NCBI GenBank assembly: GCA_046497505.1
Contig: JAWOFN010000091.1
Coordinates: forward strand, 1 to 11,544
DNA: 11,544 bases
Origin: JAWOFN01 sp046497505 [NCBI: bacterium]
GTDB lineage: Bacteria > Blakebacterota > Blakebacteria > Blakebacterales
Direction of reading: 5' to 3'
Shown here: positions 1 to 10,410 of the stretch, one piece after another
How positions within the stretch are numbered: position 1 is the stretch's first letter
How the letters are laid out: every line of letters starts with the position of its first letter
The notes under the pieces: generated by a model
Told to the model about the DNA's origin: nothing
Databases searched by the model: none
What the model saw: the letters and a program-made list of their open reading frames with translations, nothing else
Position numbers and translations under genes: made by a program

Positions 1-326
1 CGGGGGAGCCGAACCGTACCAAGGTGGGCCGGATCATGGAGAAGGACATCCAGGCCATCGCCGAGAGGAAGATGCCCGACCTGAACGCCGATTCCCTGGA
101 ATCCGCCATGTCGATGATCCGGGGGACCGCCCGGAGCATGGGTGTGCTGGTGGAGGGCGAAGCAGGCGAGATCGCCAGCGCCGAGGAGATCGAGGCCTCC
201 CGCGAGCAGGCCGTCGCGGCCGCCGAGGAAGAGGTGCCGCCCGGCACCGCCGAGGCGGGTGCCGAGGGTGTCGAGGGTGCCGAGGGCGGGGAAGAAGAAA
301 CCGCGCCGGCCGGAGGTGAAGCGTAA
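1..326 (+). CDS. rplK: 50S ribosomal protein L11 (5'-truncated) with acidic C-terminal tail
   Basis: L11 binds the GTPase-associated region of 23S rRNA at the base of the L7/L12 stalk and takes part in EF-G, EF-Tu and stringent-factor activity. The 5' end lies outside the window; the frame is open from base 3 and 107 codons are visible. The start of the visible protein ([11 protein letters not shown]) and the [12 protein letters not shown] block, ending near base 158, match the C-terminal rRNA-binding domain of L11, where the family normally stops at about 140 residues. The frame then continues for 55 more codons (bases 159-323), rich in Glu, Ala and Gly: 17 Glu, no Asp, one Arg and no Lys. 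The TAA at 324-326 overlaps the rplA ATG by one base (TAATG), and the last tail codons encode the rplA Shine-Dalgarno, so the two genes are probably translationally coupled. The L11 identity is firm; the role of the tail is unknown. Confidence 0.96.
258..284 (+). repeat. Three tandem 9-bp units in the rplK tail
   Basis: Three back-to-back copies of GGTGCCGAG occupy 258-266, 267-275 and 276-284; the middle copy differs by one base (GGTGTCGAG). They are in frame and encode Gly-Ala-Glu, Gly-Val-Glu and Gly-Ala-Glu. A degenerate Gly-Gly-Glu unit follows. Because the unit is a multiple of three, copy-number change would lengthen or shorten the tail without a frameshift. This points to replication slippage as one source of the extension. 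Confidence 0.8.
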
Positions 327-1052: not shown

Positions 1053-1883
1053 ATGACTTCGGCTGAAGCACAGATCACACACGAGGAAGAACTCGCGCAG
1101 CTGGAGCGTGAACCCCGCCCGCGGAAGGTGGCGGAGGTCGCCCGGCTGAAGAAGGTGCTCGAGGGATCCAAAGGCGTCTTCCTGACCGACTTCCGTGGGC
1201 TCGACGTGGCGAAGATGAACGAGCTGCGCTCACGGTTTCGGGAAGAGGGCGTGCAGTACAAGGTCGTGAAGAACACGCTGCTCATGCGGGCCGCCGATGA
1301 TGCCGGCCTCGAGGGGTGGCTCGACGGGCTCGAGGGTCCGGTGGCCATGGCCGTGGGTCGGGACGACCCGGTGGCTCCGGCCAAGATCATCGACACCTTC
1401 CGGGAGGACCATAAGCGTGAAGGGGATTACCTGCTCTTCCAGGGCGGGATCCTTAACGGCGAGCCGATCGACGAGTCCACCTTCCACCGGCTGGCGAGTC
1501 TGCCGGGTCGGGAGGAGCTCATCGCCCAGGTGCTCTATCTCCTCACCTACCCGATGCGTGGTCTGGTGACCGTCCTCTCCGGTGTGCCCCGCAGCCTGGT
1601 GTACGCCCTGGAGGACCTGCGGAAGAAGCGGGAGAGCGGGGAGATCGAGGGGCCGGCGGAGGAAGCCGCGCCGGCAGAGGGCGAGGAGGAGAGGTCCGGG
1701 AAGACCGGAGAGACCCCCGAGGAGGAGGCCGAGAAGGAAGAGGCCGAGGAGACCGCCGGGGAAGCGGAGGACGAGGGAGAAGAAGAGAAGGCCGAAGCCG
1801 AAGAAGAGGAGCAGGAAGCAGCCGCCGAAGAATCCGCGGACGAGGCAGCCGGGGAGGAAGCGGCGGAGGAAGAAGAGAAGTAG
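1053..1883 (+). CDS. rplJ: 50S ribosomal protein L10 with long Glu-rich C-terminal tail
   Basis: L10 anchors the stalk. Its N-terminal domain binds 23S rRNA beside L11 and its C-terminal helix carries L7/L12 dimers. The product is 276 residues against the usual 165-180. Residues 1-20 are a short acidic N-terminal extension. Residues 21-151 hold the globular domain, including KGVFLTDFRGLDVAKMNELR and KVVKNTLLMRA. Residues 152-194 (PGREELIAQVLYLLTYPMRGLV to DLRKKRE) fit the L12-binding helix. Residues 195-276 are a low-complexity tail with 38 Glu, 2 Asp, 4 Lys and 1 Arg. The tail is in frame with the core and runs to a clean TAG, so I see no frameshift. The ATG at 1053 follows GGAGAGG (1042-1048). 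The 19-base gap to rplA leaves no room for an E. coli-style L10 leader unless it lies inside rplA. The identity is secure; the tail's role is unknown. Confidence 0.97.
   Translation: MTSAEAQITHEEELAQLEREPRPRKVAEVARLKKVLEGSKGVFLTDFRGLDVAKMNELRSRFREEGVQYKVVKNTLLMRAADDAGLEGWLDGLEGPVAMAVGRDDPVAPAKIIDTFREDHKREGDYLLFQGGILNGEPIDESTFHRLASLPGREELIAQVLYLLTYPMRGLVTVLSGVPRSLVYALEDLRKKRESGEIEGPAEEAAPAEGEEERSGKTGETPEEEAEKEEAEETAGEAEDEGEEEKAEAEEEEQEAAAEESADEAAGEEAAEEEEK
1635..1880 (+). other. Purine-rich, low-complexity segment encoding the L10 acidic tail
   Basis: This stretch encodes residues 195-276 of L10. From 1681 to 1880 the + strand is about 80% purine, with only two T bases, and it holds uninterrupted purine runs at 1773-1791 and 1865-1880. 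GAG and GAA codons dominate, so GGAGG-like, Shine-Dalgarno-like hexamers recur inside the reading frame. A GAGGCCGAG unit occurs at 1725-1733 and again at 1740-1748. The base composition differs sharply from the neighbouring coding sequence, but the reading frame is intact. Confidence 0.85.

Positions 1884-2496: not shown

Positions 2497-10410
<7,914 letters not shown>

Follow-up and report, generated by a model that had tools for sequence, protein, structure and literature searches.

The question raised by this locus is why ribosomal protein L10, which is generally regarded as stopping with the helix that binds L12, carries a long glutamate-rich stretch after that helix. The DNA analysed here (11,544 nucleotides, referred to as the window) is a ribosomal and RNA polymerase region with the gene order rplK-rplA-rplJ-rplL-rpoB-rpoC, and it encodes L11 (cut at the window start), L1, L10, L7/L12, RpoB, RpoC, S12 and S7. 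The products L11, L1, L10 and L12 were named by NCBIfam models and RpoB and RpoC by similarity, and S12 and S7 were identified by eye from the translation. On the forward strand, L1 (rplA; NCBIfam and ORF list) spans 326–1033, the L10 ORF (rplJ) spans 1053–1883 and L7/L12 (rplL), which is of normal length, spans 1994–2374 (TIGR00855, 153.9 bits). The region between 1 and 2600 gave no Rfam match at gathering scores, and the matches in plasmid records were to rpoB and L10 only, all below 60% identity.

The L10 ORF encodes a product of 276 amino acids, the residues 24–194 of which matched NCBIfam NF000955 over profile positions 2–168 of 168 with 161.3 bits (cut-off 85). This full-length family match above the cut-off identifies the product as a bacterial L10 (uL10), with its body in residues 1–194 (1053–1634, forward strand). 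A Glu-rich N-terminal extension of ~20 residues (1053–1115) was also noticed upstream of the family start. The Thermotoga maritima L10 chain (1zav) aligned through its residues 7–178 of 180 with residues 24–193 of the window protein, and the chains of 1zav and 4v63 (Thermus thermophilus-type) end 2 residues beyond the position aligned to residue 193. None of the 31 PDB sequences matched had a match extending beyond query residue 197, and the top two Foldseek hits in the PDB were 1zav and 1zax, both L10-L12(NTD) complexes. When the structure was predicted with AlphaFold from 21 sequences (the window L10 and 20 of the 39 loci from the first scan with the L10 body), the body was modelled confidently (mean pLDDT 77.5 and pTM 0.54 for the protein) and a helix at residues 153–194 (1509–1634, forward strand) was obtained with pLDDT of 75–86 in blocks of 10 residues. 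By its alignment to 1zav, this would be a long alpha-8 of the T. maritima type. Stalks of the L10[L7/L12]6 type are described for T. maritima and T. thermophilus, and of the L10[L7/L12]4 type for B. subtilis and E. coli (excerpt of PMC6021402). The match to the T. maritima protein suggests that alpha-8 of the window L10 could hold three L12-dimer sites. The whole body and the putative long alpha-8 are common to the window protein and ordinary bacterial uL10 (NF000955, 1zav, 4v63), whereas the chains of 1zav and 4v63 lack the extension.

The extension occupies residues 195–276 (82 amino acids; 1635–1880, forward strand) and consists of 38 Glu, 2 Asp, 4 Lys, 1 Arg, 18 Ala, 8 Gly and 11 other residues, giving a net charge of -35; it ends in EEAAEEEEK, and its only large hydrophobic residue is one Ile near the start. 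The original prediction had counted 40 acidic and 5 basic residues here, in exact agreement, and had placed the tail directly after the L12-binding helix, which holds as well, the helix being modelled at 153–194 and the family match ending at 194. The composition is far from that of the neighbouring genes. If residues were acidic at the rate of 0.15 seen in L1, the L10 body, L12, RpoB, RpoC, S12 and S7, the probability of 40 or more acidic residues in 82 would be 8e-13 for this stretch, which was chosen post hoc. The most acidic 80-residue stretch has a charge of -36 in L10, followed by -18 in RpoC and -17 in the L11 fragment among the eight products, and the tail alone matched no Pfam family at E ≤ 0.1. 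An origin by frameshift or by loss of a stop codon was rejected, as the tail is in frame with the body and, like the genes (G+C of 0.73/0.39/0.84 and 0.66/0.39/0.94 at the three codon positions), is lowest in G+C at the second position (0.85/0.44/0.77). A fresh tandem expansion was likewise rejected because the Glu codons are mixed (24 GAG and 14 GAA) and the DNA repeats are short and imperfect (1.9–2.9 copies, 72–92% matches). The tail is real at the sequence level, and it is presumed to be made, kept and exposed.

The original prediction had the tail projecting from the stalk base. Since alpha-8 aligned to the very end of T. maritima L10, the tail would instead leave from the outer (distal) end of alpha-8, beyond the L12 sites, and would sit among the mobile L12 domains. 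AlphaFold gave pLDDT below 50 across most of residues 201–243 and a helix of low confidence at 242–275 (1776–1877, forward strand; block pLDDT 54–70), and the tail is predicted to be mostly disordered. The Lys/Arg face of the L12 C-terminal domain binds translation factors, and a tail that leaves from the end of the L12-dimer helix might serve as a docking strip for these basic faces, tethering the domains or competing for them and so tuning the access of factors. The window L12 does keep a Lys/Arg pattern beginning NK..VIK..R, as in E. coli bL12 (alignment to 3j7z_6). However, no motif is evident in the tail, and the same pattern occurs in two species with an untailed L10, E. coli and T. maritima, so it is general and does not point to the tail. 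We consider such docking distinctly unlikely.

A second acidic tail was found on L11, where the conserved end of the protein is followed by a 55-residue stretch (159–323, forward strand) with a high content of Glu, Ala and Gly. Two adjacent stalk proteins with the same kind of tail had been noted; L11 is indeed acid-tailed, but the two genes are not adjacent and the untailed L1 lies between them. The overhang past the L11 model was 57 amino acids in the window, and the next largest was 4 among 78 L11s (window included, with several loci from one genome in some cases). The L11 fragment, which is incomplete in the window, scored 57.9 bits over residues 2–70 against NF011111, an L11/unknown domain fusion with a cut-off of 310. 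When it was searched in a Spirochaetota-type group of genomes (groups are labelled here by the titles of their seed loci), 111 of 120 genomes matched and all matches that extended beyond query residue 60 ran across a stop codon, in a search that detects only tails that align to the query. Furthermore, L11 was measured in 12 of the 13 other genomes in which L10 is tailed, and its tail never exceeded 5 residues. The L11 tail is thus rarer than the L10 tail among the sequences examined.

With two of eight window products tailed and a mildly acidic RpoC end, the tails could also belong to a genome-wide habit of the organism and not be a trait of the stalk. Among the window products examined, acidic tails are absent from L1, L12, RpoB, S12 and S7, and the two tailed products, L10 and L11, lie in what we take to be one ribosomal region; a genome-wide habit appears rather unlikely on these grounds. 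The saline habitat and cation binding offered earlier are consistent with the high acidity of the tail. The isoelectric points of L1 (9.30), S12 (11.35) and S7 (10.19) are basic, which makes a salt-in adaptation unlikely, those of RpoB and RpoC are 5.46 and 5.69, and the tail has only 2 Asp beside its 38 Glu; we regard this explanation as scarcely credible.

Whether L10 of other bacteria ends at the helix was examined in genome contigs. The tail counts given here are lower bounds, as sequences were fetched only where a match ran on or the frame was long. The first scan with the L10 body returned 39 loci at up to 47% identity, and the largest corrected overhang was 21 amino acids (locus L036), followed by 7. 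In a Marinisomatota-type group, 84 of 100 genomes matched, none beyond query residue 203, and four long-frame genomes that were fetched had 1–2 amino acids after the body. In a Desulfobacterota-type group 189 of 198 genomes matched (143 of 148 in a second search of this group, which shared 147 genomes with the first), and tails of 77 (G296), 55 (G111) and 49 (G272) amino acids were found among the matches listed, together with shorter ones of 17 (G145) and 12 (G149). The Spirochaetota-type group (111 of 120 matched) had tails of 33–100 amino acids in eight fetched genomes. In a Clostridia-type group (146 of 149 matched) the tails measured 33 (G422, the genome of L036), 19 (G565), 12 (G501) and 11 (G537) amino acids, with 5 and 3 in two others, and a further Clostridia locus (L037) had a 19-residue tail. 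The Spirochaetota and Clostridia lengths were counted from the match end, 10–13 positions short of the model end, and when corrected they become 23–88 amino acids for the eight Spirochaetota-group tails and 21 for L036. Several apparent extensions in the search results ran through stop codons or arose from upstream open frames and showed no tail once fetched. A search with L1 as query among relatives of one genome (G013) returned members of the same group and nothing on tails.

Altogether, tails of 33–100 amino acids at the same L10 site were found in 12 fetched genomes of the three groups. The earlier statement that ordinary L10 stops at the helix holds for most L10s searched, but some bacterial L10s continue past it. 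These 12 do not amount to 12 origins because at least G296 and G111 share a tail. Like the window protein, they have a low-complexity extension after alpha-8, mostly Ala-rich with Glu, Pro or Lys (E/K/A repeats in G272, and A/E/P repeats in G296 and G111); two are Ser/Thr/Lys-rich (G326 and G337). They differ from it in a net charge of -4 to -20 against -35, which makes the window tail the most acidic measured, and in an L11 without tail where measured. The position of the window tail and the other tails at this site indicate that the outer end of L10, which would face solvent, tolerates disordered extensions and has gained them more than once. Two loci of the Desulfobacterota group (L057 and L058) have a common tail end, PAAPADKPE[TS]GE, after a middle of differing length, which hints that the tip is kept.

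Tails on further ribosomal proteins were searched for in the S10-spc-alpha region of the 13 other genomes with L10 tails (G423 with a tail of only 19 amino acids), using G321 as the reference. The screen covered 312 orthologous frames including those of the reference; contigs of 5–7 kb supplied three of the 13 stretches, and a few overhangs flagged in G365 were joined frames and not tails. An acidic low-complexity end, defined as last 30 residues with at least 90% A/E/P/D/K/S/T/G/Q and a net charge of -2 or less, was seen in one of the 312 frames, a small ORF in G393. C-terminal tails that were mostly basic or mixed occurred on S10-spc-alpha products of G326, G337, G393, G372, G413 and G423. 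Tails on proteins of ribosomal operons are thus a wider habit in some lineages. Three Spirochaetota-group genomes (L10 loci L085, L086 and L081; operon loci L109, L108 and L105) combine long L10 tails with mostly basic or mixed S10/spc tails, and the charge of a tail may follow its site.

These results bear on the possibility that the window tail has grown nearly neutrally, slippage adding Glu and Ala codons where GA-rich DNA encodes a C-terminus that tolerates them, to no purpose beyond being harmless. Purines make up 78% of the tail DNA. Glu is encoded by GAA in 14 of 38 cases in the tail but in 45 of 323 elsewhere (Fisher p 0.0009), and the L11 tail has GAA at 5 of its 16 Glu codons (p 0.07); the excess in the L10 tail may reflect weaker selection on codon use there. 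Such relaxed codon choice would be expected of neutral growth, as would the different sequences of same-site tails between genomes and the presence of tails on other ribosomal-operon proteins in some of the L10-tailed Spirochaetota-group genomes. Against it stand the uniform charge sign of the 82 residues, of which no more than 5 are basic and a single one is large and hydrophobic, and the second acidic tail on L11. In addition, the +1 frame of the tail DNA (ORF 1582–2001) is Arg/Lys-rich, which makes the acidity a matter of reading frame and not of base composition alone. We hold neutral growth to be a real possibility, not far behind the reading that follows.

The reading that we favour, tentatively and at somewhat less than even chances, is that the tail is a lineage-specific, largely disordered polyanionic extension at the solvent-exposed end of L10, which most likely acts electrostatically. 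Starting at the outer end of alpha-8 past the L12-dimer sites, it would form a flexible negative bristle or shield that could repel acidic surfaces, RNA included, from the stalk and from L10-L12 complexes that are still free. Wrong contacts during assembly might thereby be fewer, somewhat as the acidic tip of Hfq competes with non-specific nucleic acid. The tail may affect assembly or factor traffic. In favour of the shield, the tail begins where the L10 family ends, the ordered body is followed by the predicted low-confidence stretch, the tail is not a fresh tandem expansion and tails occur at the same site in three other groups. On the other side, the remaining tails have other sequences and a much lower charge, so that acidity may not be the common trait; the over-use of GAA fits weaker selection; and some other tailed genomes have tails on further ribosomal-operon proteins. 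The electrostatic bristle is our best guess, and a tail of no function is nearly as likely. Of the two tails, only that of L11 would sit at the stalk base, where L11 lies. A bolder version, in which the polyanions of L11 and L10 jointly surround the factor-binding region with negative charge, guide L12 domains and GTPases and represent an independently evolved bacterial counterpart of the acidic P-stalk tails of archaea and eukaryotes, seems very unlikely.

The likeness to known systems is partial in each case. The archaeal and eukaryotic L10 homologue P0 (uL10) has an acidic C-terminal stretch, as the window L10 does. Its hydrophobic C-terminal factor-binding motif (SD[D/E]DMGFGLFD in the eukaryotic stalk) is absent from the window tail, whose large hydrophobic residues amount to a single Ile. 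C-terminal glutamates on a ribosomal protein are also known from S6 (RpsF), to which RimK adds them post-translationally (excerpts of PMC7343187 and PMC11957791), whereas the window tail is gene-encoded and on L10. The acidic C-terminal domain of Hfq is disordered and terminal like the window tail, but the tip of Hfq attaches to basic residues in the core of the same protein. With a pI of 5.59 and a net charge of -4, the L10 body has no basic character, which weakens a self-masking role of this kind and makes binding of the tail to its own body less likely. No literature on acidic tails of bacterial L10 was found, judged by titles and the starts of abstracts, and L10 was not mentioned in the excerpt of PMC11764897. 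The tails in several bacterial groups suggest that the outer end of the stalk is a place where extensions can grow, and the tailed L10s provide a natural set of variants for relating charge near L12 to factor recruitment and stalk assembly.

A scan of viral contigs with L1 as query returned a single locus (L046, positions 7564–8675 of an IMG/VR contig of 278,859 bases), in which L11 and L1, but not L10, were found and which adjoins a helicase-like ORF named by eye; the contig is either phage-borne or chimeric. The kinship of the window was examined with FastTree trees of 21 taxa, a sample without Gemmatimonadota and similar phyla. In all trees the window was placed beside, and outside, a clade of one Bacteroidota record and three Marinisomatota-type genomes, and local support for that group was 1.000 with RpoB+RpoC+L1, 1.000 with RpoB+RpoC and 0.977 with L1+L10+L12. 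RpoC is 62% identical to that of a genome in the sample (G019). The identities to some Bacillota-type genomes were 66.5% for L1 (G461), 51% for L10 (G561) and 66% for L12 (G558), against 62.7, 40.8 and 63.0%, respectively, for Marinisomatota-type genomes, which taken by itself argued against the placement by RpoB and RpoC. Because the L1+L10+L12 tree keeps the Bacteroidota/Marinisomatota grouping, we read the higher Bacillota-type identity as slow evolution in those genomes.
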